Source: Halichondria panicea
Lineage: Eukaryota; Porifera; Demospongiae; Suberitida; Halichondriidae
DNA length: 64,000 nucleotides
Assembly: GCF_963675165.1 (NCBI RefSeq)
Contig: NC_087383.1
Location: 3,254,979 to 3,318,978 of the forward strand
Reading direction: 5' to 3'
In this document: one piece after another, positions 820 through 44,358 of the stretch
Layout of the letters: each line of letters begins with the position of its first letter
Position numbering within the stretch: the first letter of the stretch is position 1
Made by a program: the position numbers and the translations under genes
Notes under the pieces: model-generated
Seen by the model: the letters and a program-made list of their open reading frames with translations, nothing else
Database searches by the model: none
What the model was told of the DNA's origin: nothing

Positions 820-1734
820 AAAAAAATTTGCACTCAGTCCAGTTATAGGGAGTGGAGATGAGATCATTCTGTTGGCCACCTCAATTCCTGCTTCTTCTAA
901 AGGATCTTGCACTTGTGTCAATGTCTGCAAAGTGACAAACTTAAAATGCAATTATGGTGTTTTACGCTTTTAGTAATTATTGTGACACATGCATGCATAG
1001 ATGTACTGTATGACACGTTTAGTTATACCTCAGTAAACAACCTCTCATCTTGAGTGATGAAGGCAATACGTTTCCAGCCATACTCTCGAATGAGGCTGAC
1101 TATGGCTGGAGTGAAGATTGTGTCAGAGGGGTAGGTACGGAAAAAGTTGGGGAAACGTTCTCTGTTACTCAACTCAGTCAGCGATGAAGCATACGAAATC
1201 TTTACAGAATAGAGAATTGATTAGCTTCAGCTTATAGAAATTACTAATAGCTACTTATAATTATACATCACTACAATACGCATGCTATCCACTTGACCAT
1301 GCATGCACCTGTGAGATACTATTGTGGTGAATGATCTCTGCCACAGGAGTAGAGGCTACTGAGCAGCCACAGCCCAGGAGACCAAGCACAGTCGGATGGG
1401 GTGGAGAAATGGCATCAAAATATTCATTCAGCGACACAGTTCTATCACACTGCAAATTGAGTTTATTTGATCTAGTCCAAGTTAGATCTAGATCTAGAAG
1501 ATCTATACTCACCATTGTGTCCACCACAGGTGTGTGAGTGAGGTTGTAGCCAGGTAGAATGGAGCTGTCAGCATTAATCAGCTCCTCTGCTAACTCAATG
1601 GCTGGGACTGCTCCTGATGAGTCAAAACCTCCTGTAGGTCCAGAAGTAAACAGAGCATATTTCAGCTCTTGACTATGGACAGCTTTAAATAAGCACCCTA
1701 GTAGCAGAGTTAATGCAATAGATGTAACACACAT
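820..1734 (-). pseudogene. GABA-B-receptor-like copy 1, truncated after exon 4
   Basis: Four exons match the start of the array genes: 1513-1734, 1309-1449, 1029-1199 and 820-924. They encode a signal peptide (MCVTSIALTLLLG...), then the first lobe of a class C receptor ligand domain with the array-typical LLGCGCSVASTPVAE and SNRERFPNFFRTYPSD-type blocks. All four are open, in phase and have intact GT/AG sites, with about the same intron sizes as the complete copies. No exons 5-15 follow toward position 1, so this is either a 5' gene fragment left by unequal crossing-over or a gene with an unusually long intron continuing beyond the window. Exon 4 is closest to copies 4-6. No stop codon is seen inside the exons, so decay may be recent. 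Confidence 0.75.
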
Positions 1735-1953
1735 CTTTAAATTGCATAAGAGTAAAGACTTATTAAGTTGCAGAACTGATGCACTTGCTAATAATTATAT
1801 ATAGATAATTAATGATCAATTTTGTCAGGATGCAAAACTATAGGGGAGGGGCTGTATAATGTTGCTTGCAACTCTTAAGTGGCTTAAAAAAAAAGTTAAA
1901 CGAGTGTTTTATAACGAGTGTCTCAGTTATAATTATAATCAGCAGTCTGTTCG

Positions 1954-4900
1954 TCAACAATGGTTGAACTCTTCGATTTCTTCAGTGTTGAGGACAATGA
2001 TACTGCAGCCTGTATCTGCAGGTGAACTGGAGATATGAGTATCTATGGTAATCGGCTGGTCGTCAGGATGACAAGTTGAACAGGTCAATGTACGGCCATT
2101 CTGCATATAGGAATATGACTGCCTCAAACACTCTCCATGCATCAATGCACATCATGCCATAACTAACCTGACTCTTCTCTAGAAGACTCTCTAACTCGAC
2201 AATTTTTTCCCTCATTTGAGTTGTCACTTCTCCACTGACAAGGTTTAGGTTCATTTCGTTGGTATTCAGAGTATTGCCAGCTGTATTGAATACATACTCA
2301 CCCTCAGGGTCTCTGTACAAACTCACCATCTGCAAGAATGCATGGGTCATTCATCGTGAGAGCCAATAGAAGTTTTTACTTCAATAACACAGTACATGCA
2401 TGTGAGTACTTCTATAGATACCAACACATACGAATAACACTGCAGTTAAAATTTACTTCGTGAATTTAAAAGTCCGATACATGACATTGCAAGAAAGTAT
2501 AATGATGCGAATTAACCTTAGGAATGAAAATTAGGCCCAGAAAGAATGTTGTGGCCATAAGGAGACTCCCGGAGAAGATGGCTTCAATTATATTGATATA
2601 AATTCCGGGCACTAGTGTGACAATTGCAATGAGCACCAGAGCAATGCTTGAGATGTAGATCACTGCAGCAATGTACTTGGAGTCGTTCAGCAGCTTGATC
2701 TTGATTTTGCGTGTTTGAATAGCGAGGACGATTCCAATGATTTGAAGGATTGCTAGGTATGCAAGTGTCACTACCAGATAGATTGTCTGAATGGTTCCTG
2801 GAAAACACTGATACACCATTTCATTTATCCTTTCTCCAAACTCCTACAAAGCAAGTGTGATTCTTTCATATAATAAGTATTATAGTTATTGCCCAGCCAG
2901 AGTGCAACATGCCATATATTGCGCCATGCACTGGAGCAATATAATGCCCGAGGGCCGCAGGCCCCGAGGGCATTATGTCATCCAGTGCAATATATGGCAT
3001 GTTGCACGAGGGCGCCTGCAATAACTAACTTGTTGCCTAATGACGTTAAACTCGTCTGACTGGTCATATAAATCGTAATAAAAGACATGTGTTTTGAAGG
3101 AATTTAGTTTTGCTGTATTCCATAGTAAATTTTTAGGTTTTCTTCCCACTAGTAGTTATAAAAGTAGTAGCCTATAAAATATAAAAGGGGTTATTGGGTG
3201 GGATGGTGGGGCATAAGTCCCAAATGGATATCTCTTAAAGATATCTACTGCATTTACACACAGTGCAAGTGCATATATATATTCCAGTGCAATAATATAT
3301 GGTAGCCATGGCAGTGATGCAACATGCCATATACTGAGCACTGGATTGCTTTGATCTGCCCACTCACTGGGCAACAATACAAACTAATTGACTTACATTT
3401 CGCCTTTTGTCTTGTGAGTCCTCAGTGAGGCTCAATGGAGATGGATTTGGTTGTAATTGGGGCACGGAAACTTGTATTATCGACAGCAATACACCAACAG
3501 AAGAAATACCGACTACCAGTAGCACCAGCTTCCAGTCATTCAACGTCTAAGTGACAATAGTATAATACTAGTTTATATATTTTGTGCATGTGCCATACTT
3601 TTTTTGAAAGTGATGGGTTGTGGAAAATGTAGTAGACTCTTCCCATTTTGACAAGGATTGCTGAAAAGGCTAAGCTGTAGCCGATCGTATTGAATAGAGA
3701 ATCAGCCTATTTAGCAGACACATGCATCATTCAAGTTGCACAAGTATAATTATGGTATAATGGCACTTACGTAACACCTTATTGCATTCAACTCATATTC
3801 CGTGCTGGGTAGGACTCTGAAGAAGATGGATATGTAATGACAGTAAGCTCCGACAATGATGAAGTAGTTTATGTTGGGGCTGGTTATCTTGACAACCCTG
3901 AAGGAAAAAACAGCCAAGATTGCGTAATAGCTTAAGCCACTCCAAGTTGAAGTTAGTATTGTCCTTATTCATTTAAGGTCGTTGTTTCGCCTTATGAATA
4001 TTATTATTAATTTTTGCAAATGAACACACTATTTTGTGCCACATGGTTATAGTGCGCATTATGCGGATGACCAGAGTATCACTTGGAGTGCATGGCCTTA
4101 CAATATAGCTATTTCTTTCATTACAGGTTAATGACTCACTTCTTTTTTCTCTGCATAAAATTGAAGATCAGGCACACAGTACAGAAGACAAGGCCGACAG
4201 CTGCCAATGTGTAGTAGGGAATCACCAGAGCTAAATTAAATGTAAGGAATTGAGGGACTGGGGTTCCATCACGTGGGATGCCTCCCTCAGAAGCTGCGTG
4301 GGAAAAGTGTAAGTGTAGTGTAACAGTTTGTTAAGTAACAGATTGAATTCTTACATGCAGACAATTACAAACACTGACCAACACTTGATTGGACAACAGA
4401 ATTTGGGTATAGTAGAATGTGAACTACACTTACAAGGAAACACATTACTGCTGTTTACTCCAGGTTTGTAATAGAATTCAACTTCCGAATCATTAACGTT
4501 TTCAGTGAAACCGAAGTACACACGTTCCAAGGTGCTGTTTGTTAATCGATACTGCAAGAACTCCACCTTGTCAACAATTCGTGATCCAGAACTATCAAAC
4601 TTCACTCGTCCCTTATAAAGACGAAAGATTGTACTCAACAATTGTTATTGTTCAGTAGTAATAATGCAAATTGCATGCATACTGTATACACCGCATGCAT
4701 GCTGTATACACAATAAGAAATATGAGCTCCATAATGTTTACTTACAGACACCCCCACAAAGTCTGTTCTCTCCAGGTTCCACCTGATGATGCAGCCCATG
4801 AGCTGATTGGAGTAGGTGAAGTTCTCCAGTGACACCACCTCCCACTCTACACCAGTCTCCTCACCAGTCCCTCCACACCGAGTCATGTTCAATATCTCCT

Positions 4901-6291
4901 CTTTTGTCAGACTGCCAACCATCTCATTGGTCCTGTTCAACGCGATAGCAAATGTCCAGAGAGCATCGTAAGCCACAGTGGCAAAAAATATGTAACTATA
5001 GTTATTGATTAAACTTTCAGTTCGCAAAAGTCTCATACGATAGAAATATTCAAAATCTCCAGGTGTCTGCAAATTCCACATAATTCACATAAAAATGATC
5101 AATATCTCTACTCACCAATCTAGTATCAGTTGTAAGATCTGGTTCATTCAAATTTGGCAGCAACTGAAGTGCAATGGATCTGTGCAGGATCTCTGCTAGT
5201 TGGTCATCAGTGCAGTTTGTTGGCTCTGGGTTGACCTCCTCTGTCCACCACCTGTCCTGGTACCAGCCGTAGGTCAACCACGCATATTTGGGATAAGTGT
5301 ACCCCCTTAAGTAGGCCTGTACAGTTAAATGTAAGTAAGTATACAAACTGGAAAATAAATTACCTCACAAAGAATTAGTCGGCCAACAGCTGAGTAGGTG
5401 TTGAGGAAGAAAACTCTATAGTTATCATCTTCAAACTAGAAAACATGTAAAGTGATTAGTTACATTTAGAGCATGGACATGCTAATTGAAAGGTAAACTT
5501 ACAAAAAAATTGTTTTCTTTGATACTTTGTCTAATCATTGGGAGTAAGGGTGAGATCATTCTAATATCCACATCTATGTTTGCTCTCCTCAGGGGATCTC
5601 TTACTCTCGTTAGAGCCTGCCATAGATAATTATGTTCAATGTCTATCAACCAAAGGATGCCCTTAGCCTACCTCAGTAAACAAGCTCTCATCTTGAGTGA
5701 TGAAGGCAATGCGTCTCCAGCCATACTCTTGAATGAGGCTGACTATGGCTGGGGTAAAGTCAGCATCTGAAGGGTAGGTACGGAAGAAGTTGGGGAAACG
5801 ACTTCTGTCACTCAACTCAATTGAAGATGACACGTACGAAACCTGAAATGTTGCAAATTGTTGAATCTAACATTGAAATGCTGCAAGTTCTAACAAACCT
5901 GTGAGATACTGTTGTGGTGAATGATCTCTGCCACAGGAGTAGAGGCCACTGAGCAGCCACAGCCCAGGAGACCAAGCACAATCGGGTGGGGTGGAGAAAT
6001 GGCATCAAAGTATTCATTTAGTGACCCTGTTCTATCACACTGTTCAAAATACGGTTAATCTAGAGAGCAGACTGAAACTAGGCTCACCATTGTGTCCACC
6101 ACAGGTGTGTGAGTGAGATTGTAGCCATGTAGAATAGAGCTGTCAGCATTAATTAGCTCCTCCGCTAACTCAATGGCTGGGATAACCCCAGATGAGTCGA
6201 AATCTCCAGTGGTTCCAGAAGTGAACAAAGCATACCTCAGTTCTTGACTGTTAGCAGCTCCAAGCAAGAGAATAATAAACAGAATAGCCAT
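1954..6291 (-). CDS. Metabotropic GABA-B-receptor-like GPCR, copy 2
   Basis: Exons (5' to 3'): 6088-6291, 5899-6039, 5672-5842, 5503-5616, 5364-5435, 5116-5316, 4746-5066, 4434-4611, 4140-4293, 3771-3897, 3599-3706, 3397-3546, 2517-2843, 2168-2329, 1954-2100; about 858 codons. A signal peptide (MAILFIILLLGAANS) precedes a bilobed ligand domain to about residue 467. Seven helices cover about 485-756, with class C GABA-B hallmarks: SPNINYF before helix 2, QTRKIKIKLLNDSKYIA between helices 5 and 6, and FIPK after helix 7. The tail has a short coiled coil (exon 14) and a last exon with CSTCH. Family knowledge: such receptors signal through heterotrimeric G proteins, usually as dimers. The ligand is unknown. 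Intron 12 holds palindromic repeats. It keeps a GT donor there, unlike copies 3-6. The first ATG gives the signal peptide. Confidence 0.9.
2885..3026. repeat. Palindromic mini-element (hairpin) in intron 12 of copy 2
   Basis: Two perfect 21-bp arms (2902-2922 and 2987-3007) read GTGCAACATGCCATATATTG and its complement, with imperfect outer extensions starting GTTATTGC and ending GCAATAAC. The loop contains a second inverted repeat, AATGCCC/GGGCATT. This is typical of a miniature inverted-repeat transposon or foldback element. Confidence 0.7.
3264..3345. repeat. Degenerate second copy of the CATGCCATAT hairpin element
   Basis: This stretch contains CAGTGCAATAATATATGG and TGCAACATGCCATATACTG, the same units as the element at 2885-3026 in a rearranged order. 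It lies in the same intron and looks like a decayed or partial copy. Confidence 0.5.
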
Positions 6292-7497
6292 GTTAATTGA
6301 AGGCTCTCCCTAGGTATAAGCAAAACATACAGTAGACTCTACCATAAAAAGCTTTTTCAGGGCGTAGTCTATGCTTGCGAGCGTGAAGTTATGTGGGGGC
6401 GGGGCTGAAGATAGATCATCCCGATGATAGACTGACGTCAGACTACTGGACAATTTTTTATGTGTTAGAGTGCTTACAATAAATTCTACTGGATGCATGA
6501 TAATTATGATCAATTTTGCTTGCACCATAGATACTGTACACTCCAGGGTGTACAGTATCTATGCTTGCACCGTGCCACAGATCTTAGACGCTATGAGGCC
6601 GCCAGCCAATCAGCCCCACCCCTCTTTTTGGAAGCTGATTGTTGTCACACTAATTGGTGCAGCACCTTTGGCTTTGCAGCACATACATGTAACATGAACA
6701 CACATTGACAACATGAAACCACAATGTACTATTGCAGACACTTCGAACCAATTCAAGATTTGTATAGTGTTACTCCTGACATCTCCAGACTTCCACTAAT
6801 AATCCTCTGTTTTTTTAAGCTTTCCATCCTGTGAGCCAACCACTAGATGCCGTAAAATTATCGGAACCTAGTCGTTCAGCTTTCTCCATCAAAATCGTTC
6901 CTTCAGGGAAAACGTTTCTGGAAATTGCAAGTTAACATTGCAAAATACAAATCCTTCAACCTTGACGTGATTCTTATTTTTTAGGATTGTGTCCTACCAC
7001 ACTTAACGTTTCTGTTAACTTTCTTGTTCAAATTTTTGGTTCTTTTTCGACAGCTTTTATCACTTCAAATGTCATCTTTAGAGATAAGTCATTCCTCTTA
7101 TGCATGTCTATGGCTAGAGTGAGGGCCAGGGCTAGAGCGAGAGGAGCTAAATCTATCTACGTTGATATCCCATGTTGTTTTTAATAAAAAGGCAGACATG
7201 GCCACATCAGATGTAATTACGGCGCCAAGCAGTAATTCCCAAGCCTCGATAAGGCCACACTTATTTTGTGGTTTTATAATTATTGTCCAATGCGTGCATG
7301 TGGCCACCAACTTAATTCGTTCTATTTAAACAATTCTGCCTGGGTGCAGAGGCACATGCACTGTTGTATGGGAAATCAGCACGATGATATAATGTCTCAT
7401 GATCAGCTATGATAAAATACAACGACATTGTTTAGTCTAAGAGTTAACTAGTAAGAAATTAGTAGTATCTTTTTCGATATCTGTCATAGTTCCATTG
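6292..7497. promoter_or_regulatory. Intergenic region between copies 2 and 3, with GC-boxes and a hairpin
   Basis: No gene is visible in these 1.2 kb. For copy 2, transcribed leftward, this is the promoter region. A GC-box-like GGGGGCGGGGCTG lies near 6393-6407, about 100 bp upstream of the start codon. The GGGGTGGGGCTG box shared with copies 3-5 lies near 6609-6632 in its usual orientation. A hairpin lies at 6526-6563. The rest (about 6830-7320) is unrecognised. Confidence 0.45.
6526..6563. repeat. Near-perfect 16-bp-arm palindrome
   Basis: The arms CATAGATACTGTACAC and GTGTACAGTATCTATG are separated by six bases. The palindrome is about 240 bp upstream of the copy 2 start codon. It could be a transposon footprint or a dyad binding site; nothing else distinguishes these. 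Confidence 0.65.
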
Positions 7498-10400
7498 TCA
7501 GTTTTGGTGGCCATTTGGCTGATAATCTGAATGACACCTTGGACAGCTCAATGTACGGCCATTCTGCATGGGAATATGTTCCATACCTGCCTTAATGCAC
7601 ATACCACAACTAACCTGAAACTGTTTCAGAAGGTGTTCTAATTCAACGATTTTCTCCTTCATTTGAGTCGTTGCATCTCCACTGAAAAGGTTCACGCTTG
7701 TTTCGTTAGTTTGTACTGAATTGTTAGTCTGATTCAACACAAAGTCTCCTTCTGGATCTCGATACAAGCTGATCATCTACAAATGAACAAAAAACTCTCT
7801 ACAACAAGATAGTTCTAGGTCAATAACCACAATTATTAAAAGAGCACAAGCGGAACCCCAAAAAACTTTTTCTATCAACAACTGGCTATTATAAATTATA
7901 TCGATGTCCTTTAGGTATATATAGTATAGTATACCAAATGATCCTTGTAACTGTACAATCCCCAAGTATAGACAGACACACATGTACTGAATATATTGAA
8001 CCTTAGGAATAAAGACGAGGGCCAGGAAGAACGTTGTTCCAACAAGTATGCTTCCGGAGAAGAGGGCCTCCTCGATGTTGATAAACTGATCTGGAATTAT
8101 GACGTTACTTCCAATAAAGAACAAAGCAATGCTTGAGATGTAGATCACTGCAGCAATGTACTTGGAGTCGTTCAGCAGTTTAATCTTGATTTTGCGTGTT
8201 TGAATAGCGAGGACAATTCCGATAATCTGAAGGATTGCTAGATACACAAACGTCACTGTTAGATAGATCGTATGAATAGTTTCTGTATAGCATTGGTATA
8301 CCACTTCGCTTATCCTTTCACCAAATTCCTGTGTGGTAGTATAAAACGTGTAAAATTTTAATTATAGTATTACAATGACATCTGTATCAAGATTCAATCA
8401 CATATTAATTTCCGATGTCTACTTGCATTTCTTGAAAAGGTGTCTGTAGTGACATTTAGTGGATATGGTATTGGTTGAAGCTGTGGCACTGTAACTTGCA
8501 GAACTGCTAGCACAACACCAATTCCAGATATGCCCATTACTATTAGCACCAGCTTCCAGTCTGTCAGTGTCTACATTATAATTATGTACGTTGCATGAGC
8601 GTTGCATGGTGAACGATTTTTCAAATACCTTCTTTCCAAGTGACGGGTTGTGAAAAATGTAGTAGACTCTCCCCATTTTGACTAGAATTGCAGAAAAAGC
8701 CAAGCTGTATCCAATTGTATTTATAGTAGAGACAATCTGCAGAAGAATTAAGAGTCATAAACAAGAAGTACAGCGCAGATACATATACTTGATAATACTT
8801 ACGAAACATCTCACAAATGTGAAGGTGTAATCAGTGCTTGGCAACACTCTCAGATAGATGGATATGTAATGACAGTAAGCTCCCATAATTATGAAGTAGT
8901 TTATGTTGGGGCTGGTCAATTTCACAACTCTGTAATTGTGAGCATATATATATATGCGTATATAAAAACAATGCTATAGATGTTTACAAGAATGCAACTT
9001 AATTGAAACCTTAAGCTTGTTGTCATGATGGCTATCACCTCTTTTTCCTTTGCGTGAAATTGAAGAGTAGACAGACCGTACAGAGGACGAGGCCAACAGC
9101 TGCGAAGATGTAACAGGGAATCACAAGAGCAAAATTGTATGTGATAAACTGAGGCACTGGTCTACCATCTGGTGGGACTCCTCCTTCAAAACCTGCATAT
9201 ACGCATGTGCAATAAAATGCTCGATTCAAATGAGTACAATCGTAGCACTATTATAAACGCTTCCCATCATCTGGGTGTAAAGTGGAATCTTTATCTTTCT
9301 GCAAATAAACACTGGGCGAAATTGTTGGCTGCTCTTACTTGGAAACACAGTGATGTTACTCTCCCCACTCTTGTAAAAAAAATCCGCCTGAGAGTCATTG
9401 ATGTTTTGGGTGAAGCCGAAATATACACGAGATATTACTGATGACTCATTATTTATTAAACGGTACTGGAAAATATCCACAACACCAACAACTCGAGATC
9501 CATCATTATCAAAATTTACTTTCCCCTGTAAAATGTTGAGAGTGTGTAAGAGAGGACACTTTACAGTTGCTATAATTATACGCAGTGACTTACAGACACT
9601 CCCACAAAGTCTGTTTTCTCCAGGTTCCACCTGATGATGCAGCCCATGAGCTGATTGGAGTAGGTGAAGTTCTCCAGTGACACCACTTCCCACTTTACAC
9701 CAGTCTCCTCATCAGTCCCTCCACACCGAGTCATGTTCAATATCTCCTCTCTTTCCAGACTGCCAACCATCTCATTGGTCCTGTTCAGCGCGAGAGCAAG
9801 TGTCCAGAGGGCATCGTAAGCCACGGTGGCAAATAAAGTGTATGTGTAGTTGTTGTCTTGAGTATAGTCTGCAATCCTTCCTTTGTATAAAGAATCAAAT
9901 TCCCTCGGAGTCTGCATTTGGGATAATTAAAACCTCAATATCCATGTAGCTCACCAATCTAGTATCAGTTGTAGAATTTAATTTATTAAGATTTGGCAGC
10001 AACTGAAGTGCACTGGATCTGTGTAGGGCCTCTGCTAGTTGGTTGTCAGTGCAGTTTGTTGGCTCTGGGTTCACCTCCTCTGTCCACCACCTGTTCTGGT
10101 ACCAGCCGTAAGTCAACCACGCATATTTGGGATAAGTGTATCCCTTCAAGTAGGCCTGCATAATTATGACGTTTTGTCACTTTATGTACATATTCGGATT
10201 GATTCCATCGTGTAGTTTACCTCACAAATGATTTGTCTGCCAATAGCTGAGTAGGTATTGAGGAAAAACACTCTATAATCCTCGTCTTCAAACTAAATGT
10301 AGACATGTGAACACATATATACCATGTCAACAGTGTCCTTCCATTACTTACAAAAAAATTTGCACCCAGTCCTCCAGTCATAGGGAGTGGAGATGAGATC

Positions 10401-11325: not shown

Positions 11326-11407
11326 TATGATAATTATAGTGCTATAATTATAGGCTATTATCTAGTAGCAAAGTAGATCTAGCAACAAAAATTAATATCC
11401 TGTTTCC

Positions 11408-11435
11408 GATCAGCCCCACCCCTCTTTTTGGAGAG
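11408..11435 (-). promoter_or_regulatory. Conserved GC/GT-box upstream of copy 3
   Basis: On the minus strand this reads AAAAAGAGGGGTGGGGCTGA, a KLF/Sp-type GGGGTGGGGC box. The same block occurs just upstream of copies 4 and 5 and further upstream of copy 2. Here it lies about 85 bp 5' of the start codon. A promoter role is inferred from position and conservation. Confidence 0.5.
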
Positions 11436-11565
11436 AAACAAAACTGTGTCATTAATATTCTTGACAAATTAAGTACTTATGGGAAATCAGCATAATAATG
11501 TCTCAGTACAATGATAATAATTATGCATTATGCAACGGCAGTGTTAGTAAAGTAAAAATCTAAAA

Positions 11566-22200: not shown

Positions 22201-25200
22201 GTGACATTTAGTGGATCTGGTATTGGTTGAAGCTGTGGCACTGTAACTTGCAGAACTGCTAGCACAACACCAATTCCAGATATGCCCATTACTATTAGCA
22301 CCAGCTTCCAGTCGTTTAGTGTCTGCATTATATAATTATGTAAATGAGCGTTGCATGAGCGTTGCATGGTAATGCAAATACCTTTTTTCCAAGTGATGGG
22401 TTATGAAAAATGTAATAGACTCTCCCCATTTTGACCAGAATTGCTGAAAAAGCCAAGCTGATTCCGATTGTATTTATAGTAGAGGTAATCTGCGTAAAAA
22501 TTATTTAATCAGTAAGAGGTCATCAAGATTAATTACAACCAAGAGTTCATTAGGAAGAGTACACAACTCCACTTAAAACCGTAGTAGGCGTTTCTTCCAA
22601 CCTACGTCACAACCTGCTGTTGTTATAAACTGTGACTTCAATTTACAATGAATAACATAGTGATGATTGTGATAATTATAGTAGGAAAGGCAATGAGTTA
22701 CATAGCATAGTTACTTATTGCCTTTTCTGCTAGACTAAGTTGCGGTTACGTAGGTCAGACGGAACGCCTTTTGTGCTACAGTCTATTGGAGTTGCGTACT
22801 CTTCCTAATGAACTCTTGTTACAACACATGTACAATATAAGTAATTATGTGTACTTGAAAATACTTACGAAACATCTCACTAAGGTCACAGTGTAGTCGG
22901 TGCTTGGCAACACTCTCAGATAGATGGAGATGTAATTACAGTAAGCTCCAACAATGATAAAGTAGTTTATGTTGGGACTGGTCAATTTCACAACTCTGTA
23001 ATTGTGAGATGAACGTGTGTATGTGAAAACAATGCTTATTATAGATGTTTACAATAATGCAAACATAATTAAGCCTCTGTGTCAAAATAGACATGATGGC
23101 TATCACCTCTTTTTCCTTTGCGTGAAATTGAAGAGTAGACAGACCGTACAAAAGACGAGGCCAATAGCTGCCAATATGTAATAGGGAATCACGAGAGCTA
23201 AATTGTACGTGATAAACTGAGGCACTGGTCTACCATCTGGTGGGACTCCTCCTTCGGAACCTGCATATACGCATGAGCAATAAAATGCTCGATATGAAAT
23301 GTATACTACAGCTTAATAATTATCGATTGCTTATTGCAAATACGATTCCCAACATTTGGGAATCTGTATAAAGTCCATGCAAGTATATACTATACACAAC
23401 ATATATAGGCATGGCTGATGGTCTTACTTGGAAATACAGTGATATTACTCTCTCCACTCTTGTAAAAAAATTCCTCATGGGAATCATTGATATTTTGGGT
23501 GAAGCTGAAATATACACGAGATATTACTGCTGACTCTTTGATTATTAAACGATACTGGAAAATGTCCACAATATTAACAACTCGAGATCCATCATTGTCA
23601 AACTGTACTGGCCCCTTTAAAAGGTGAGAGGGGTATATGTTTATAATTTAAAGGACGACACAGTTGCTATATTTTTTGTCTTACAGAGACTCCTACAAAG
23701 TTTGTTTTCTCCAGGTTCCACCTGATGATGCATCCCATGAGCTGATTGGAGTAGGTGAAGTTCTCCAGTGACACCACCTCCCACTCTACACCAGTCTCCT
23801 CAACAGTCCCTCCACACTGAGTCATGTTCAATATCTCCTCTCTTGTCAGACCAAGAACCATCTCATTGGTCTTGTTCAACGCGATAGCAAATGTCCAGAG
23901 TGCATCGTAAGCCACGGTTGCGAAAAAGGTGTACGTATAGTTATCTTGAGTATTGTTTGCAAGCCTTCTTTTATATAGAGAATCAAATTCCCTCGGTGTC
24001 TGTATTTGGAATAATTAATACCTCAGATTGAAATATCATGCATGCATGCAGCTTACCAAGCCAGTATCAGTTGTAGAATTCAGTTTATTCAGATTTGGCA
24101 GCAACTGAAGTGCAATGGATCTGTGCAGGGCCTCTGCTAGTTGGTCATCAGTACAGTTTGTTGGCTCTGGGTTCACCTCCTCTGTCCACCACCTGTCCTG
24201 GTACCAGCCGTAGGTCAACCACACATATTTGGGATAAGTGTACCCCCTCAAGTATGCCTGCATGATGTACATAATTGTATTACATGCAAGGATTGATTCC
24301 ATCATGCAATTTACCTCACAAATGATTTGTTTGCCAGTAGTTGAGTAGGTATTTACGAAGAAAACTCTATAATCCTCGTCTTCAAACTAAATTACAACAA
24401 TTAATGTGAACACATAATTATGACTGTGCATGTCATGTCAACAGTGTCCGTCTATTACTTACAAAAAAATTTGCACCCAGTCCAGTCATAGGGAATGGAG
24501 ATGAGATCATTCTGTTGGCCACCTCAATTCCTGCTTCTTCTAAAGGATCCTGCACTTGTGCCAATGTCTGCAAACAAAAAGGGCAAAAATGTTATTTACA
24601 GCTTCATGCAAGGCATATAGTGTAATGCATTTACCTCAGTAAACAAGTTCTCATCTTGAGTGATGAAGGCAATGCGTTTCCAGCCATACTCTTGAATGAG
24701 GCTGACTATGGCTGGAGTGAAGATTGTGTCAGAGGGGTAGGTACGGAAGAAGTTGGGGAAACTATCTCTGTTACTCAACTTGGACAATGATGAAGCATAC
24801 GAAATCTGTATCAAATATAGAGTATAATTATACGTATCTTGCCTGATCAGTTTCAAGAAGCAATAATCCTGTGTCATAAATAAGCAAAAACATTGATCAA
24901 AGCTGGTAAACATTGATCAAAGCTGGTAAACATCTAAAATCGAGACAATTTGACTAGTATAGATCTCTGTAATATCATACTGCTATACAATACCTATTGC
25001 ATGACAGTAATCACGCCAGAAAAATATACCTGTGAGATACTGTTGTGGTGAATGATCTCTGCCACAGGAGTAGAGGCCACTGAGCAGCCACAGCCCAGGA
25101 GACCAAGCACAGTCGGGTGGGGTGGAGAAATGGCATCAAAGTATTCATTCAGTGACACAGTTCTATCACACTGCAATAGTTTTTGTGAGATGCATTTTAG

Positions 25201-25748: not shown

Positions 25749-28700
25749 CTAGAAGTAGAAAGAAATATCTTCTTCGAAATCAGTCATGGTTCCATTGTCA
25801 GTTTTGGAACAGTTCTGGCCATTAATTTTTGACAGATAGTCTGAATGACACTTTGGACAGGTCAATGTATTGTCATTCTGCATGGGAACATAACTGCCTC
25901 AAACACTCTCCTTCAATGCACACTTGACTACTAACCTTCAAAAGTGTTTCTAACTTTGCAATTCTCACCTTCATTTGAGTCGTTGCATCTCCACTGACAA
26001 GGTTCTCGCTTGTTCCGTTAGTTTGTACTGAATTGTTTGCCTGATTCAACACAAACTTTCCTTCTGGATCTCGATACAAGCTGATCATCTACAAATTAAT
26101 GCAAATATTGGACAAAAAACTTCAAGCTAGATATTCTCTACATTTCTTCTACTATAATTATCTGACTATTATCAATGTTATTTTAGAGTCCCAATTATAA
26201 TAACAGTACATATGCATGCGTGTAGTCTATATACCAATGTGTACAATCTAGACAGACACGTACCCATATGCAGTCATCCTTGTGAATATGAAAATGATAT
26301 TATACCTTAGGAATGAAGATGAGAGCCAGGAAGAAAGTTGTCGCAATAAGTATACTTCCGCAGTAGATGGCCTCTTCTATGTTGATGAGATGATCAGGAA
26401 TTAGAACGATACTTCCAATAAAGAACAAAGCAATACTTGAAATGTAGATCACTGCAGCAATGTACTTGGAGTCGTTCAGCAGTTTGATCTTGATTTTGCG
26501 TGTTTGAATAGCGAGGACAATCCCGATAATTTGAAGAATTGCTAGATACACAATCGTAAGTGTGAGATAGATTGTCTGAACAGATTCTGTATAGCATTGG
26601 TAAACCATTTCGCTTGTCCTTTCACCAAATTCCTGTGTGGTCAGAGTGAAATATAATTATGCATAATATTGATGTAAGCATCTCGACCTCTCTCACTGTA
26701 TGATTAGTAATATGGTTAGAGAGTGCAACGTGGGATTTTTAGCATGAGTTAACAAGGCAAAGCCGAGTGCTATAATTACCTTGCCATGGCTTGTGCTATT
26801 AATCCCTTATTGCACGAGTAACCGATTCTCTGCAGTTTTAACCGTAGAATTATAGTTTCACTATATACACAGCTCTTCTTGTACTGATAATTTCACTGAA
26901 GCCCGACATTTTCTATTCCTTCTTGCTAAGGTTTTATATTGAATGTATTTGCTTGCCTATAGCAACCTTAATTGAGATTATAGCCAAGCGAAGATATTTC
27001 AGACGAGAACTAGCTATATGGAAGTCTAAACATATGCTAGATATATAGAAATTTATCTATGCGGGTGACTCGGGTTATAGTAGTCGGTCAGTCTGTCTGT
27101 CTGTCATTCTGTGTGTTTGTATTCTGAGTCTGCCTACCTGGATACAATAGCACTGTGTACCATGGATAGCCTCAACACAAACAAGATAATATTTTTTAAT
27201 TTGGCAAATTTTGATGTTAAAGCTTCATTGTCGAATAAAAGTGAGCTTTTTTAAAAGCTAAGAAGCTTGAACACGGCTTTGACTCGAGGCTGTACACTAA
27301 ACCCTAAATTAACGTTTGCACTTTACTTGCTATCTATAGCTATAGACACTTGCTGCACTATAATTATAGCACAGTATTGTATAACAAGAGAGCTCACAAG
27401 AGTGTCTTGTCTTTTCTTGAGTAAAATCAGTATAAGATCAAAGCCTCCAAGTATAAACAAGTTCATTTCATATAATAAACTCATTTCCGTATATAAATTA
27501 ATGTCAGTGTAAAAAGAGTACAAAAACATGGAAATTAGACGAAATACTATAGAGTAAGGCATCTATATTCAGACACAATGTATGTTCAGACACTCATTCT
27601 GAGGAAACAAGCAGTGATAAAAAATTTTCTTTTGCACCATATGATCAAGCATGTGTTACTATGAATGTATGCAAAAAAGAATTGATAAATATCAACTAAG
27701 TCTTCAAGAGCTGAAAATGTGCTAGTGTCTGATAAACGGTAAGAACAGACAAAAAAATCGATCATCAGACACAACCTACCTTTTCTTCTGTAGGGGGATA
27801 TGCTGAGAGTTACATCAATAAAACCCCCAAAGTTGGAGTTGCAAAACGCTTGTATGAGGTCAAAGGTCAAATGTCATTGGCATGTGTACGCACATGCCCA
27901 CTAAAACATTTGACCTTTGACCCCAAGTTGCGTGGGGTGCCAGTATAACATTTGACCTTTGACCTCATTTTCTGTCTGATCATTGATACGCGAGTGACTC
28001 AGCAGAAATAATTGCTGCATGGACATACAAGCGTTTTGCAACTCCAACTTTAGGGGTTTTATTGTTTAGTTATTGTCCTTACATAATTACTATGTGACTC
28101 TCAGCATATTCCCCTACAGAAGAATTAAACGGTAGGTTGTGTCTGATGATCGATTTTTTTGTCTGTTCTTACCGTTTATCAGACACTAGCACATTTTCAG
28201 CTCTTGAAGACTTAGTAGTTAATATTTATCAATTCTTTTTTGCATACATTCATAGTAACACATGCTTGATCAGATGGTGCAAAAGAAAATTTTTTATCAC
28301 TGCTTGTTTCCTTAGAATGAGTGTCTGAACATGCATTGTGTCTGAATATAGATGCCTTACTCTAGTGGCTTTATAAGATAAATGTCTGGTATGCATAGCA
28401 GTGGGAAATGCAGTAGGAGGGTGCATACTGAGATCGCGTGACAGCGCGCATTAATAATTTTTAGGTGCTTAAGCACCCTGAGCCCATAGCTGGATACGCC
28501 ACTGCATAGATAAATTTCTAACATATGTTTTAGTCAGCAAAGGGGACAATTAAGTAAAGTGCAGCACATTATCTGTATTTTTGTGTATAACCGTATTAGA
28601 AGGAAAAAACCGTATACTTGGAGGTAAGATTTTTGTCCACGAATGAGTTTGCAAAAATCTATAATCCTATAGCCTCACCCACTGCTATATAAAACTGCCT

Positions 28701-35700: not shown

Positions 35701-36950
35701 TCGCAAAGAGTCAAATTTTCTGCTGATTTGGCTCATTCGCAAAGGTTTTTCACCAGCAAATAGTAATACGGTACGTCATGCACATCTTAATTGGCTAATT
35801 GGATGTAATGCATTCAACAAAATGAGACCCACCTCAGTAAACAAGCTCTCATCTTGAGTGATGAAGGCAATGCGTCTCCAGCCGTACTCTTGAATGAGGC
35901 TGACTACGGCTGGAGCAAAGTCAGCATCAGAGGGGTAGGTATGGAAGAAGTTGAGGAAACGACTTCTGTCACTCAACTCAATCGAAGACGACGCGTACGA
36001 TACCTGATATGTTGGATTTCAATGACTGTCACAATAAATTAGTGAAACATCTAGACCTCATGCATGCACCTCTATATATACAGTTAGCTATATAACTGAA
36101 CAATTCACAGCTAATTGCATTGGGTGCCTATATAATTATTACCGTATATAGCTTGTAATAATAAACAGCGAAACCTCTTATAATGGACTCTCTAAATAGT
36201 GAATCCCTCTGTTATAGCGAACCGTGGCAGCATGCCTTGTACCAACTGTACTGCTTTTACTATCAACTTGTGTAATTGCAACCCCCGAATAGCGGACACC
36301 TCTAAACTCCGGACAATAGATGAGTCGCCTGTACGAAAGATACATTTATAGCAGAATTAACCTCCTATAACGGACGAAGGGTGTGGTTTTAAATCTACAA
36401 GAATGGTTTCCCAGAGCCTGCCACATATGTTTGACACAGAGAGCAAACCTGTGAGATACTGTTGTGGTGAATGATCTCTGCCACAGGAGTGGAGGCCACT
36501 GAGCAGCCACAGCCCAGGAGACCAAGCACAGTCGGGTGGGGTGGAGAAATGGCATCAAAGTATTCATTCAGCGACACAGTTCTATCACACTGCAATAGTT
36601 TTTGCGAGATGCATTCAGTTTAGTGGCTATAGTTTACCAGTATAAGATGGAACCTCAACGTGAATTGAAATGGTGAAATGTACGTAGCTATTTAGTGTAA
36701 ATCTCACCATTGTGTCCACCACAGGTGTGTGAGTGAGGTTGTAGCCAGGTAAAATAGAGATGTCAGCATTAATCAGCTCCTCTGCTAACTCAATGGCAGG
36801 CACCACTCCTGATGTATGGAAGCCTCCAACAGGACCAGAGGTGAACAGAGCATACCTGATCAGCTCTTGACAGAGTGATAGCTTAAGATTATTGATCACC
36901 ACTGCCAATAGTAGAAACAGTACTGCACTAGAAAAGTTGAAGACTGCCAT
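32754..36950 (-). CDS. Metabotropic GABA-B-receptor-like GPCR, copy 7 (divergent)
   Basis: Exons: 36708-36950, 36449-36589, 35833-36003, 35378-35491, 35253-35324, 34987-35187, 34600-34914, 34351-34534, 34136-34280, 33923-34049, 33748-33855, 33551-33697, 33134-33469, 32901-33077, 32754-32834; about 853 codons. The domain order is that of the family. Exons 1, 2, 3, 6 and 7 are close in DNA to the other copies. Exons 4, 8, 13 and the tail differ strongly; exon 4 (VLVNLRGPLNSLGIGIVNKI...) shares little with copies 3-6. Exon 14 has a longer coiled coil (about 20 charged heptad residues after the MVSLYRDSTG block). The last exon lacks the CxxCH motif. The intron 12 donor is a normal gtaagt. A TG microsatellite abuts exon 13. 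Confidence 0.88.
33470..33495. repeat. (TG)n microsatellite
   Basis: About 12 TG units lie immediately beside the 5' edge of exon 13 of copy 7, on the transcript within the intron 12 acceptor region (an AC-rich tract before AG). Confidence 0.85.
35590..35771. mobile_element. CCGTAT-end mini-transposon in intron 3 of copy 7
   Basis: It has CGTATTACTAGAATGTTTTG at one end and ATAGTAATACGG at the other, with internal AATTCGCAACAATAAAATCC. The sequence is shared with the element at 47323-47533. The left end is slightly mutated. Confidence 0.7.
36173..36390. repeat. Decayed pogo-like repeat in intron 2 of copy 7
   Basis: AGCGAAACCTCTTATAATGG, GTTATAGCGAACC and CCTCCTATAACGGACGAAGG resemble end sequences of pogo/Tigger-type elements (CTTATAACGGAC-type). 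No clear paired ends or target duplication could be defined. Confidence 0.4.
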
Positions 36951-37118
36951 GCATGAGAAGTTTAATAGCAGAATAACCCTCGAGCTAGAGCTAGAACTAA
37001 AAGTAAGTTCAGGAATTTCTGTGAGCCATTAAATGTGGGCTGGAGGTACAAACCACAGCAGACTGTATGATGAGGTCTGATAGTGACGTGTATGACATAC
37101 TCATACCGGAACCTGGTT

Positions 37119-37758
37119 TACAGCTGTTTGCATCACCTTGCAAAAATTAATACTAAATCAGCTCGATCACTGCATTACCACAAAATCACCGTACAATGTT
37201 GCTATGCAAACAACATGCAGTCCTGAGCAATGAAGGTTTCTAGAACTTGTATAACAGGTACTTTTTGAGTAGACCCTCGAATATATAAGGTGGTATAAAT
37301 TATATCAAGAGTAGATGCTTTTATCTACTCTTGGTGGTATGGAAACTCACATAATTTTATGGTGAGGTTTGAAGTTTCAGGCTGAAGAAACTGTTAGTAC
37401 GAAGTACCTTTAAACACTAACAGATCACAAAATATTGTTTGGTGCTAATCTAGTAGAGAAGTATGTTCGGACTTGATGGTTAAAACCGGTATACCACAGT
37501 GAGCAAGTTAGTAGGCTCTTTAGCGTAACAATTTTTCGTACAGCACAAGTCTCAGCATAAGGCGTTGGTAGACCATTCTCTACTTCAAATCCTCCCGGTT
37601 CTATGACTCTCCATGACTGATGTAGTCTATTTCTTGAAGTCATGCACCATTGCTCACTTACCCAATACTATTTGTTTGCATAGCAACATTGTATGGTGGT
37701 TTTGGTAATGTAGTGGTATTTTGCAAGGTCTACATGTACATGTATGCAAACAGCTGTA
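37119..37758. mobile_element. Foldback element with about 90-bp arms
   Basis: The left arm starts TACAGCTGTTTGCAT and continues with TTGCAAAAATTAATAC and ACAATGTTGCTATGCAAAC. The right arm is the imperfect complement, ending ATGCAAACAGCTGTA. About 450 bp of unrecognised spacer lies between them. Confidence 0.6.
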
Positions 37759-37768
37759 CACTCTGACA

Positions 37769-37881
37769 CCAGAGGAAGTTACAACATCCGCGTGTCTTTA
37801 ACACACACTTTCTGAACTTTAACCTAAGGAATGTGTGTCTAAAACGTTTCCTTTGACACGCGGATGTCGTATCTCCTCTGG
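37769..37881. repeat. Palindromic element with ACATCCGCGTGTC arms
   Basis: CCAGAGGAAGTTACAACATC and ACATCCGCGTGTC on the left are mirrored by GACACGCGGATGT and ATCTCCTCTGG on the right, with mirrored ACACACA/TGTGTGT inside. It is a probable miniature inverted-repeat transposon. Confidence 0.65.
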
Positions 37882-38039
37882 GTTTACACTACAACTGCTA
37901 CAGTTGGATACTCCTCTTCATACACTCCTGGTGACACAAATAAAACTTTATGGTTTTATGCCTGGTCATTGAACATACATATGTGCACTGGGGCATTAAT
38001 TAGTGATCTTGACACATTGGTACAAAAAATTAGCTCTAA

Positions 38040-41000
38040 CTAATGGTCGATGCCATTTGTTCTGTGACGAGTGATTTCCTCAAGTTCATTGCTATCCGCA
38101 ACAGTGGCTGGAGCAGTTGCTATTGACGACACTATCTCAGTGATTGAATTTAGTAGGGGAGACGGACTTGGACTGTGTCCACTCAAGCGAGAAGAAGTCT
38201 GAACTCCTAATCCGTTCTGCAAAATTTACAAAAAGTATAAACGCAATCTATATAGCTACAAATGCAACGTGCAGGTCCTATATACAAAGATTATTATAGA
38301 GAGGTACACATATAGATTAATGGCCCCATCAAGTAATTTAACACCCCTCTCTCTCAACCTACAAATACAAGAAAACTCAATAATGCCTATGTCAAAGGTG
38401 CTGATGTCTCAGTGGATGCGTCAAAGCTACATAACATAAAGCTACTAGCTTTGCTTACACACGTACACACAGATATCATAATGTTCGGTAATTTTGCTTG
38501 ATGCAAGCATAGACAAAGGATGCATTGAAGCTAATCTGTAATCATAGGGAAACTCAAAGAGTGGGAAATGATCAATGCTAAAAAGGATGCCAAAAGTACA
38601 AAGTCTAAAATTAATGGCTGCTGCATCAGTACAGGGCAGTAGAGCCTTGAAGCTGTCTTCTCACTCTTACAGCAATAGCTAGCGTTACAGTCCAGAGCTA
38701 ACTACTAAGTAGAGTTAGCAACAACACTCATTGAAGCAAATCCATGAATTAAAATCCAAGAAAGTAGCATAAAATACATGCATGATTGGTAAAGTTCTAC
38801 CTTAAGACGATAAATTATTATTTTCGCGAATGAGATACCGTATAGAGGGTAATATTCGTAGGCAAAATATTTGTGGTTTTTGTGGTTGAATGTCTGACCA
38901 CAAATATTTACCCACGAATGAGCGACCTTGCCTACCTTTACCTGCAGTGCAAGCAGCAACCACGAAAATATTATCCACGAAATGACTAAATATTGCTCAA
39001 CCACGAATATCCCGAAAATTACTTGCAATATTTAGTTTATACTCGCAGATAATTGGTGAATATCTCAACTTAAAACCACTTGCGAGTAATAATAACCAGC
39101 AAAACGAGCTAGACAGTGAAATCGTACAATGTGAAAATTTGTCATCTTAATAAATATATTAATACTGACCTCTTTCATCAAACTATTATCGAATTCTCTC
39201 TTAGAGAAAGTTTTTGATAATGCTCTCTCCATCTTTGCGGAAGCATGGGGGTCTGTATTGGATGTCTGAAACACATTCTCTCCATTTGGGTCACGGTACA
39301 GGCTCACCATCTGTGCAAAATTGAAAGCACTAGCTGACATTCTGTGATGTTAAAGTCAAAACGTCGAATGCACAGCTAATAAAAAAAATAACAGAATACT
39401 AAAGGTGTAACTGCTAACAGGGGACTTAATACTAATTGCTGGCTGAGGCAAAATCAAACCCTTAGAACAGAAAAGGACAGCCAGGCACACAAGTAATGTT
39501 TATTGGAAGTTGGCTTTACAACACAACATTAATAACGTAATTTTATGATCCAGTCTATATACCTTTGGTATAAACACGAGGGACAGGAACAGGACTGTGA
39601 CCACCCACAGTCCACCAGAGGTGAGAGCCTCGCCAATGTTAGGTATGCGAGTAGCCGTGAAAGAAATCACTCCGATCAAAATCAAGACAAGACTGGAGGT
39701 ATAGATGAGAGCAGCAATGTACTTGGAGTCATTCAGCAGCTTGATCTTGACTTTGCGTGTTTGGATGGCCAAGATTATTCCAATGATTTGCAGGAGTGCA
39801 AGGTAGGCAAACAGGAGGGCCAGCATTGCAGTCTGTGGTACATTGCTCGATACGTAGCACTGGTACGACATGTACTCAATCCGAATTCCGAACTCCTGTG
39901 ATGACAAAAAAGCGGAAAATATAATTAATGAGCAATCAGCGACCTTGGTACTACGACCTGAAGCTTATAACCCTAACAACTATCACAGTACACATACATT
40001 AACAAGGGAGATTTGCATCTCCTTTTGTGATTCAGTGAAGCAGTACAGTAAGTACAGGATGTTATGCTCACACAACTATAGTAAACAGTTACACTACACA
40101 TAATAAAATAGCTAGATCACATACGTTTACAGTATTATTTCCTCGCTCATCATTTATTCTCAGATCTGGAGTGGGTCTGAGCTCAGGCACTGAAACTTGC
40201 AGTATTGTTAGCAGAATGCCAAAGCCAGCTACAAAAAGCACCACCAGACTAAGTTTCCAGTCAGTAACGGTCTACAGTGAGGTGAAATTAAAAATTAACT
40301 GATGACAGCATACATGTATCATAATGTACTGAATCGTACGTGCATAGCAAAATGTTGATAAGAGTATTAAGAAATATAATACCAGAGAAAAAAACATGTA
40401 TATAAACGCTGAAAGTGAACAATAACAACAACAGAGCCCCTGGCAAGGCGCATACAAAAATTACCATGTGTTTGTGTGAGCACGTACCTTTTTGCTGGTG
40501 GTTGGGTTGTTGAAGATGTAGTAGATTCTCCCCATTTTTGCCAGTATGGCTCCGTATCCGAAACAGTAGCCTGATATTATAAGGAGGCTGGAAATCTGAG
40601 ACGAAGAAACCAAACATGCGTAAGTAATTAATTACCACAAGTTATGCGTAATTAATTACCACAAGTACATGTAATTGTGGCTATAACAATGAATGTAGCC
40701 TAGCTACATATACGTGAGATGTTAGGTACGTGAGATGTTAGGTACAGCACGTAGGTGTGTTATTTGTGTTATTTTGCTACTGTATAGTGTATAGTATATC
40801 TATGGCTGATTGCAAAGATTACTCAACTACATGTATAGGAAAAATAAAAAATGCTACGGTATAGAACTTACAATACATCTTGCTTCATTCACAATGAGGT
40901 CTGTGCTAGGAAGAAGCCTGAAATAGATGGTTGTGAACTGAATATACGCTCCAAGGATGACAAAGTAGTTGATGTTAGGACTAGTCAGCTTCACAACTCT

Positions 41001-44000
41001 GTATAAGGTTAACCCGGTTAATATACAGCAGACAAAAAGTTTATAAAGTACACACACTTTAATTAGCTCATTTGTACCTCAAACACACACAACGGAGTAT
41101 AGCCTGCACTAGCTACCCCACCCAGTCTGTTGTGTTGATCAAACTTCACATTACACGTACAAAAAAGGTTACATTTCACACTTTATAGCTCATTGAATAC
41201 TGAGGTCGTATGATGCTGTGTACAACACACACAACACACACACGCACACGAACTATTGACACTCACTTCTTGTTTCTCTGTGTGAAGTTAAAGATGAGAC
41301 AGGCGGTGGTGAAGGCAAGTCCAACAGCTGCCAGCACATAGTACACTACCACCAGTGACAAGTGGTACGTGGTTATCTCAGTGATTGGGATGCCATCCAT
41401 TGGAATACCTCCTTTAAAAACAGTAACAGCGATATAGTTACTATAATTATGTACTTGGTTAAATCTATCATTGCAAGTCGTAACTTACTGTATACTTACG
41501 ATTCCAACAATATGGTTGGTGAAAATTGACAATTAGGTTAACCATTAGTATTTGCAAATCATGGTGTATGTTTTGTTCAACTCACCAGGGAATATTGTGC
41601 TGTTACTCTCCCCGTTAATGAATATTAGCTCTCTACTTTGATTCTCTCTATCATGGATGGTTTGACCGAAGTTTATCCTCAACAAGACGTCGTTTTGCAG
41701 TCTGTACTGAAACAGCTGAACCGTCGGCTGAATTCTTGTGCCATCATTGAATTCGACTCTCCCCTGCACAGAGTATGTTCAGTTGTGTGAGCAAATGTAT
41801 ATTGAATAACATCACACAACACATCGTTTAATTTAAGGAATTTTGGGCTGCAATACTAACTATATGAATAGTTAACTCACTGACACTCCCACAAAGTCTG
41901 TTTCCTCCAGGTTCCACCTGATGATGCAGCCCATGAGCTGATTGGAGTAGGTGAAGTTCTCCAGAGGTACTAATAATCCATCACTCCCCCTACACTGAGT
42001 CTTGTTCAATATATCCTCTCTTGTCAGACTGCCAACCATCTCATTGGTCTTGTTCAGCGCCAAAGCAAATGTCCAGAGGGCGTCATAAGCCACGGTGGCT
42101 AAGAACACGAAAGTGTAGTTGTTGGCTTTTGATTCTGGTTCTTCAAGTCTCGTTCGATAGATGGTCTCAAATTCTTGAGGTGTCTGTATATACAAGACAA
42201 CAAAAGCTGTGCAACACATTCAACTAGAAGCATCTTATTGTCGTGGGTACCCGTGTTATATAGAGAGTTTCAAAGAGCCACAGAAAACACTAATTGGAAT
42301 TGGACATCTAGGGCTAAAGTTGAGGGCAATCAAAGTTAGCTACTGAAATAATACCACTAGCGTAGGAATCGGTGTGTATGTACAACCACAGCTCATATCA
42401 AAGATACATACTCACCAGTCCAGTATCCGTCATACTGTTGGAATCATTCAGTGTGGGGACCAGCTGCAGCACCATACTTCCATGCAGGAACTCTGCTAGG
42501 TGTGAGTCAGTGCAGTCTGCAGGTACTTGCTCTGGGTTAACTTTCGCTTTCCACCAGTTCTCTTCATACCAGCCGTATGTCATCCACACATAGTTTGGGG
42601 AGGAGTACCCCCTAGGCCTTAGGGACGCCTGTGGACGTGGAAATAATGTTGGTACATTTGATTGCATTGACATGAATGAGATGTTTACCTCACAAATTAT
42701 CTGTCGAGCCATATCGGAATAGGTGTTAATGAAGAACACTCGAGTGTTACTGTCTTCAAACTGCAGAATGAGAATTTCTTATAATTATGAGGGCACCCAT
42801 ACAAAGAGATGTATGAATTATTGTTTTACAACAAACAGAATGTGATAAATCTTTCCAATACATGTTTTCACATACATCTGTGATCGGGAACTCACAAAGA
42901 AGCTTCTTCCGTTTGTCCTGATTGTAGAAATTGGTATCTCGGATGGGATCACAGTGTTCCTTACTCTCACATTTCTCAAAGCTTTTTCAATCCTTGAAAA
43001 TGCCTGAATAAAGATTAGAGCAGTACAATAAAGACTATCCCTTGTCTCAATGACCGTAGCTGACAGCCACACCCCCTTATCGTTTATATGCAAGTACTGT
43101 ATATGTGGCTTGGGTCTGTTGCATATACTCACTTCTGTGAACAAGCCCTCGTCTTGAGTGATGAATCCCATTTGTCTCCAGCCGTACTTTTCAATGAGGG
43201 TGACTACGGCTGGAGCAAAGTCAGCATCTGAGGGGTAGGTACGGAAGAAGTTGGGGAAACGACTTCTGTCACTCAACTCAATTGAAGACGATACATAGGC
43301 AATCTACGTGGGGGAAGGTGTTCATACAGAGTACATGTTTACCAGGTATAATTTTAGAGACGTATATAGTGGGAATTTTCGCGGGTGCAACTTTTCTCGC
43401 TCTATGCTCATGCAAAGCCCTCAGCAGAAATGTTTGTGGGTTCTGTTCATTGCCAGGAAACCACACCCACCATTAGCTTTGCATGTGAGCTTATCCCGTT
43501 TCTCGTTAACTGCTCTGCCCTCTAAAAACGCAAAATTTTGTACCTCCCGAAACTTTCCCGCTTAATATGGTATATTTGGGAAGACAGGAAATTCCTAACC
43601 AGTGACCACTTCCTGCCCTATGTACCTTACTATTGACACATGTGACCTCAACATTTATCATGAAAGCCATCAAAGGAAATGTCACGACTTGTATTCACCT
43701 GTGAGATACTGTTGAATTGAATGATCTCTGCCACAGGAGTGGAGGCCACTGAGCAGCCACAGCCCAGGAGACCAAGCACAGTCGGGTTAGGGGAAAAGAC
43801 AGTTCCAAAGTACTGCCCGAGTGATTCAGTCCTGTCACACTGCAAAAATCATTAAAGCATTACAGTTTGTAATAACCTTCATCGGGACCAGTTGCAAGAC
43901 ATGTTTTAAAATTTACTACATCACAATAAATTATAGACAAAACTATATAACTCATCTAGACACACCACTGACTGACATCGTTAATAATTCAATTTTAAGA

Positions 44001-44358
44001 ACGTGTATAAATGGCAGCACAGCAACTACCACTTCTGAATCAAAAATTTGAGCAAATTAGCAGCAATAAAATTAATGCAAAGCAGCTTAAACAATGCTGC
44101 AGCACGACTCACCATTGTGTCCACCACAGGTGTGTGAGTGAGGTTGTAGCCAGGTAGAATAGAGCTGTCAGCATTAATCAGCTCCTCTGCTAACTCAATG
44201 GCAGGCACCACACCTGATGTATGAAAGCCTCCAGTAGGTCCAGAAGTGAACAGAGCATACCTCAGCTCTTGACTATGAGCAGCTCCAGAGAAGAGCAGTA
44301 GCATTAGAGTGAGTACTGCAAGAGACGGGTCCTCCAATCTGAGACCTTTGATTCGCAT
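38040..44358 (-). CDS. Metabotropic GABA-B-receptor-like GPCR, copy 8 (most divergent)
   Basis: Exons: 44113-44358, 43699-43839, 43133-43303, 42896-43003, 42689-42760, 42416-42628, 41881-42183, 41586-41763, 41267-41411, 40872-40998, 40488-40595, 40125-40271, 39563-39895, 39170-39310, 38040-38216; about 869 codons. A signal peptide precedes QELRYALFTSGPTGGF, then the ligand domain and seven helices. QTRKVKIKLLNDSKYIAALI and FIPK in exon 13 confirm the GABA-B-like class. Exon 6 has four extra residues (PEQVPADCTD) and exon 4 is unrelated in sequence to other copies. The 59-codon last exon is Ser/Pro/Thr-rich and lacks CxxCH. Parts of exons 1, 2 and 7 are nevertheless nearly identical in DNA to copies 2-6. 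Intron 12 could use either of two in-frame donors; I chose gtatgt. Confidence 0.88.
38805..39020. repeat. AT-rich inverted repeat in intron 14 of copy 8
   Basis: TTTTCGCGAATGAGATACCG, CAAATATTTGTGG and CCACAAATATTTACCCACGA form several interleaved inverted repeats (CCACGAATA/TATTCGTGG types). It is probably a decayed mini-transposon; boundaries are uncertain. Confidence 0.45.
41224..41250. repeat. (CA)n-rich microsatellite in intron 9 of copy 8
   Basis: An interrupted CAACACACACAACACACACA tract lies just downstream of the exon 9 donor. Confidence 0.6.

Follow-up and report, generated by a model that had tools for sequence, protein, structure and literature searches.

We describe a tandem array of GABA-B-type class C receptor genes in the sponge Halichondria panicea. 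In the reading that we favour, at a probability of roughly 0.6, the array is specific to its lineage, was built by tandem duplication together with gene conversion confined to exons, and encodes receptors whose predicted pocket would serve a ligand other than GABA. Large tandem clusters of GABA-B-type genes are already known from Ephydatia, according to the available portion of that account (PMC7385117); what is added here is the exon-mosaic twist.

Although they are without neurons, sponges have GABA-B-like receptors in much larger numbers than vertebrates do, and a bioRxiv paper devoted to the genome of Tethya reportedly describes expansions of this family in three sponge classes. If such arrays do not bind GABA, it would be a mistake to cite them in favour of early GABA signalling, and they would become candidates for the sensing of dissolved metabolites or microbes.

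Array extent and gene models

Repeated receptor exons are visible in the minus-strand stop-to-stop frames of the window, by which we mean the whole 64,000-nucleotide stretch analysed (C7:3254979-3318978, in an assembly of 131.5 Mb and 39 contigs). A tblastn search with five exon queries located 13 GABA-B-like genes over about 92 kb of C7, from 3299.2k to 3207.8k. These were modelled with a purpose-written spliced protein-to-genome aligner and numbered R01 to R13 from right to left. All 13 genes gave aligner scores of 3215-3959, compared to at most 182 for the controls (the 13 opposite strands, 13 shuffled segments and six other stretches). Eight of the genes lie in the window, head to tail on the minus strand, and five more plus one 3′ fragment lie beyond its left edge. 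The main features are as follows, in window coordinates unless a contig is given:

44358-~39170, minus strand: R01; exons 1-14 modelled, end of exon 14 set by eye, final exon not modelled
36950-32754, minus strand: R02; aligner model to exon 14, exon 15 spotted by eye in the DNA
32255-25749, minus strand: R03; 15 exons, protein 97% identical to R04
27550..28364, no strand assigned: foldback repeat lying within R03 intron 12; has 149-nt arms that are 97% complementary and 127 matching pieces genome-wide; looks like a dispersed mobile element
25515-19264, minus strand: R04; 15 exons, protein used for the Pfam and PDB scans
24463..24567, minus strand: exon 4, in R04 as example; diverges most of all exons, at a mean pairwise protein identity of 42%
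23685..23867, minus strand: exon 7b, in R04 as example; the homogenised 3′ half of exon 7
19042-11566, minus strand: R05; 15 exons, intron 12 of 3.3 kb
11325-7498, minus strand: R06; 15 exons, its own early stop preceding the aligner's last-exon frameshift
6291-1954, minus strand: R07; GABA-B-like receptor, 15 exons
1734-820, minus strand: R08; exons 1-4 in the window, exons 5-15 at C7:3254506-3251670
C7:3249122-3243843, minus strand: R09; outside the window, probably a pseudogene, its model containing one stop and two frameshifts
around C7:3227019-3227242: the 3′ fragment; aligner score 370

The initial annotation had described eight genes head to tail on one strand, seven complete and one a fragment. 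The arrangement on the minus strand and the seven complete genes stand (R01 being modelled through exon 14), but the total was understated, the array comprising 13 genes and a 3′ fragment. The supposed fragment at position 820 is the eighth gene, R08, cut by the window edge; since its exons 5-15 continue further left, we rejected the idea that this segment is degenerate. An aligner scan of C7:3299600-3315600, 3228000-3243000 and 3190000-3206500 found no extra array genes. Genome-wide, an exon-13 query matched 39 places, 14 of them in the array (the 13 genes and the fragment), and a search with 7tm_3 gave at least 123 exon-level matches.

The full plan of 15 exons, with intron phases 0,0,0,0,0,0,0,1,2,0,0,0,0,0, is present in 8 of the 13 models (R03-R10). 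R02, R11 and R13 agree with the plan and its phases up to exon 14, R01 agrees with the plan through exon 14, and R12 follows it but lacks intron 5. The exon plan earlier said to be common to all copies is supported to this extent. Four copies, R03-R06, have a GC-AG donor (GCAAGT) at intron 12. Measured from stop to ATG, the gaps are 498 bp (R02-R03), 221 bp (R04-R05), 240 bp (R05-R06) and 219 bp (R07-R08), bearing out the 219-240 bp given previously for several of them. The R03-R04 gap is 233 bp with the conserved ATG, or 68 bp if an upstream in-frame ATG is used, and the R06-R07 gap is about 1206 bp, counted from R06's own stop.

In the predicted proteins, a hydrophobic leader at the N-terminus is followed by a Venus-flytrap domain, seven helices and a short C-terminal tail, with no cysteine-rich domain after the flytrap. 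With this layout, binding of a small extracellular molecule and signalling via a G protein would be expected of each receptor, and the array genes are apparently functional receptors.

Four related genes form another same-strand array at C2:870001-900000; it has the same exon plan up to exon 14 and shows no homogenisation of exon 7b. Class C receptor clusters also occur at C4:7234835-7298586, at C3:343380-434796 and on C17. Many of their members are single open frames of about 500-920 aa, and hence apparently intronless, so that the family would have expanded in this genome in a second way as well.

Family placement and the predicted ligand pocket

Scans made with the R04 protein gave Pfam matches to ANF_receptor (2.2e-49) and 7tm_3 (1.4e-37), and none to the cysteine-rich domain NCD3G at E<=0.001. 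The best matches of R04 among solved structures were GABBR1/2 (E of about 1e-74, compared to 1.2e-18 for mGlu4), and its exon 14 region falls within the alignment to the GB2 tail. A tree of the 7TM region was built from 33 of 36 aligned proteins, with 12 array genes included (R09, C5_2420k and C2_6573k were dropped). In this tree, the array and the C2 array form one clade (support 100) within a sponge family (91), which is sister to human GB1/GB2 plus the sponge gene L007 (87), all within the GABA-B clade (99). R01 groups with the C2 array (81), and none of the array genes has a one-to-one human orthologue among these 33 proteins. The PDB scan of R04 and the tree with its 12 array genes both place the array nearer to GB1/GB2 than to mGlu receptors, in support of the family assigned in the initial annotation.

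The contacts of GABA are listed as W65, S130, S153, H170, E349, Y250 and W278 in the part of the source available (PMC12499500). For this same set we use the rat numbers 181, 246, 269, 286, 366, 394 and 465, which are reproduced by the spacing of the landmarks in human GB1. Glu465 contacts the amine of GABA and the serines hold its carboxylate. Pocket residues were read from a sequence alignment of the 13 array genes. S246 and W394 are present in all 13, S269 in 12 (Leu in R03) and Y366 in 10 (Phe in R02, His in R12 and R13). H286 is found in none (Tyr in 11, Leu in two), nor is W181 (Phe in 11) or E465, where the residue is never acidic (Phe in six, Leu in five, Ala in one, Thr in one). The contact set W181, S246, S269, H286, Y366, W394 and E465 is thus incomplete in the array.

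The loss of E465 and H286 from 13/13 genes makes canonical GABA binding by the array receptors unlikely. As the residues that hold a carboxylate are kept and the acid that holds the amine is lost, the likeliest ligands would be non-GABA carboxylic acids, for example dissolved metabolites that come from food, from symbionts or from the sponge itself, a proposal to which we give somewhat less than even odds. The counterpart of the GB2 coupling residue L686 is also kept, in 12/12 genes, and those of K690 and Y691 of GB2 are kept in 10/12 and 11/12, respectively (R09 left out). Compared to human and fly GB1/GB2, the array receptors are alike in having a flytrap and 7TM domain without a cysteine-rich domain, and in keeping S246, S269 (12/13), W394 and the GB2-type L686. 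They differ in lacking E465 and H286, in their tandem arrangement, in the absence of one-to-one human orthology in the tree, and in combining the pocket serines with the GB2-type coupling residue in one subunit.

The pocket is not more variable than the remainder of the flytrap domain (mean entropy of 0.57 vs. 0.63, P=0.57, for seven positions in 12 genes). This lack of hypervariability weakens the chemosensory reading raised in the initial annotation and counts mildly against a diversification of ligands. Vomeronasal V2R-type class C receptors form tandem arrays; the sponge array resembles them in its dense, same-strand class C genes, but differs from them in its pocket, which is not hypervariable.

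Two further GABA-B-like genes, L028 (C3:6740k) and L033 (C15:2010k), carry Glu465, His286, Tyr366 and Trp394 in the alignment, with Glu at the S269 position and Thr at the S246 position. These two may be GABA binders and perhaps better candidates than the array copies.

Exon mosaicism

Exon 1 and the 3′ part of exon 7 are near-identical between copies that are synonymously saturated elsewhere. R10 and R13, for example, have an overall dS of 1.33, yet their pS is 0.12 in exon 1 and 0.09 in exon 7b; for R07 and R10, pS is 0.04-0.22 in exons 10-15 vs. 0.61-0.70 in exons 8-9. A run test, based on 676 third positions that are polymorphic, covered 75 of the 78 pairs; three pairs less than 8% different were skipped. 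The permutation floor of P<=0.0005 was reached by 54 of the 75 pairs, a figure that does not correspond to 54 events because the pairs have common ancestry.

Trees of separate exon blocks, built from 11 of the 13 genes (R03 and R09 left out), are in conflict. In the AU test, the exon 1-3 data rejected the 7TM tree (p<0.001) as well as that of exons 4-6 (p 0.012), the 7TM data rejected the trees of exons 1-3 (p 5.7e-5) and of exons 4-6 (p 0.002), and the exon 7b data rejected all three other trees (p 0.001-0.006). The exon 4-6 data rejected the 7TM tree (p 0.001) but not that of exons 1-3 (p 0.146). On these conflicts the SH test was milder than the AU test: it did not reject the trees of exons 1-3 (p 0.139) and 4-6 (p 0.211) with the 7TM data, the 7TM tree with data from exons 4-6 (p 0.0565), or the tree of exons 4-6 with data from exons 1-3 (p 0.387).

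The similarity of exons 1 and 7b in many pairs might also be expected if their synonymous sites were constrained, rather than converted. However, between the array and the C2 array these exons are saturated (pS of 0.84 and 0.81, respectively, vs. 0.23 and 0.22 over representatives within the array), showing that their synonymous sites are not generally constrained, and exon 7b of R12 escapes the similarity (pS 0.41-0.45). We reject synonymous constraint on the grounds of this saturation and give it almost no credence.

Where both flanking exons had a pS<=0.2, introns could be aligned in 61 of 62 comparisons between recent pairs, but in only 3 of 27 between old pairs, 20 of which oppose R03-R05 to R08 or R10 and are hence non-independent. 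For pairs of intermediate age (overall pS 0.15-0.3), introns aligned in 23 of 52 comparisons, and in 3 of the 8 where both flanking exons had a pS<=0.2. These counts in pairs of intermediate age indicate that introns decay fast.

Because the exon genealogies conflict, exons 1 and 7b are near-identical and the introns within the tracts are mostly unalignable, we infer that exon-by-exon gene conversion is the mechanism behind a mosaicism that is itself seen at the sequence level. Exchange confined to exons leaves the copies as mosaics: the array would have grown by tandem duplication, and conversion mostly within single exons would keep it mosaic. Growth by whole-gene duplication, as put forward in the initial annotation, describes the tandem growth well but is incomplete, given the exon-confined exchange and the conflicting exon genealogies. 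Whole-gene trees of such arrays consequently blend several histories, and exon-by-exon exchange would make the roles of single exons directly testable.

One version of this process, which we consider improbable, is that spliced messages (cDNA) template the conversion, so that exons are copied without introns and the locus is exon-modular. If this were true, flytrap exons would be steadily reshuffled into new carboxylate sensors. By eye, the copied tract of R12 starts at the site of the lost intron 5, and exon 5 of R12 looks unconverted right up to that site, which speaks against a cDNA tract that extends well past the intron 5 junction. Templating by cDNA is not established; ordinary conversion in exon-sized islands of homology fits equally. 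Our search of the literature (titles and starts of abstracts, subscription journals and bioRxiv apart) found no report of gene conversion in sponge GABA-B-like arrays.

Alternative roles for the array and related systems

The array might consist of ordinary paracrine receptors for GABA or a GABA-like compound, multiplied for dosage and used to control contraction in an animal without nerves, with the amine held by another residue. GABA elicits responses in sponges, according to the portion of the report available (PMC11883242), which also counts against a non-GABA reading, and both the GABA-B family placement (PDB matches and 7TM tree) and a pocket that is conserved rather than diversified would fit. 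We nonetheless consider this unlikely, if well short of negligible, in view of the loss of E465 and H286 from all 13 genes, and of the alignment of Glu465 and His286 in C3_6740k and C15_2010k, which are perhaps better GABA candidates despite their Glu at S269 and Thr at S246. Rather doubtful, too, is the idea that the array diversifies dimer partners and not ligands, with variation in exons 4, 8 (the stalk) and 14 (the tail) and in the loop that opens exon 7, and homogenised lobe-1 exons. Mean pairwise identity is indeed 42% in exon 4, 47% in exon 14 and 51% in exon 8, compared to 86% in exon 2, the most variable 12-residue windows fall where exon 7 begins and where exons 4 and 6 end, and GB1 and GB2 act as a heterodimer (PMC12499500, in the part available). 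However, relaxed constraint explains the divergence of exons 4 and 14 equally, between-clade means keep pN below pS, and the argument starts from exon positions rather than from an interface mapped onto a structure.

Quite improbable, in our view, is a birth-and-death array of little function, whose copies arise, convert and decay. One of the 13 genes (R09) has a stop and two frameshifts, and there is one 3′ fragment, as would be seen in such an array, but the reading frames of the remaining 12 models are intact up to their own stop (R01, R11 and R13 being without modelled last exons). Furthermore, dN/dS is 0.24-0.62 over the 18 pairs listed, and 0.24-0.30 in 14 of them.

We prefer receptors for a ligand other than GABA. 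Sensing of external or microbial compounds by these receptors is plausible, the precedent being fAR1 of Dictyostelium, likewise a flytrap-bearing G-protein-coupled receptor of a nerveless organism. Recognition of folate and LPS has been demonstrated for fAR1, as far as the available part of that report goes (PMC5969738), whereas the array is known here from its sequence alone.

Among sponges, Ephydatia muelleri has >120 mGABA receptors, with >50 genes in one cluster, and their ligands are possibly GABA and/or organic acids (Kenny et al. 2020, PMC7385117, available portion). The Halichondria array is similar in being a cluster of GABA-B-type genes in a sponge, but it is smaller, and its exon-wise mosaicism and pocket losses have no counterpart in that portion of the Ephydatia account. 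In Amphimedon, 33 glutamate-family receptors are described in the part of the study available, two of them clustering with human GABA-B receptors in a placement that was unstable in a larger dataset (Krishnan et al. 2014, PMC4302439).

Two observations concern other genes. To the right of the array, an open frame of 1934 aa on the plus strand (48621-54425) contains a NACHT domain (1.6e-18) and leucine-rich repeats, and represents an NLR-type immune receptor. It has internal repeats every 582-588 nt, with six copies at 80-93% to the reference and a second family of five at 92-98%. Finally, the genome has what we take to be silicatein signatures, in keeping with an animal that is most likely a siliceous demosponge: the motif QCGSSYAF occurs at one place, where, by eye, adjoining frames resemble a cathepsin-type propeptide and a serine cluster ahead of a catalytic-His region.
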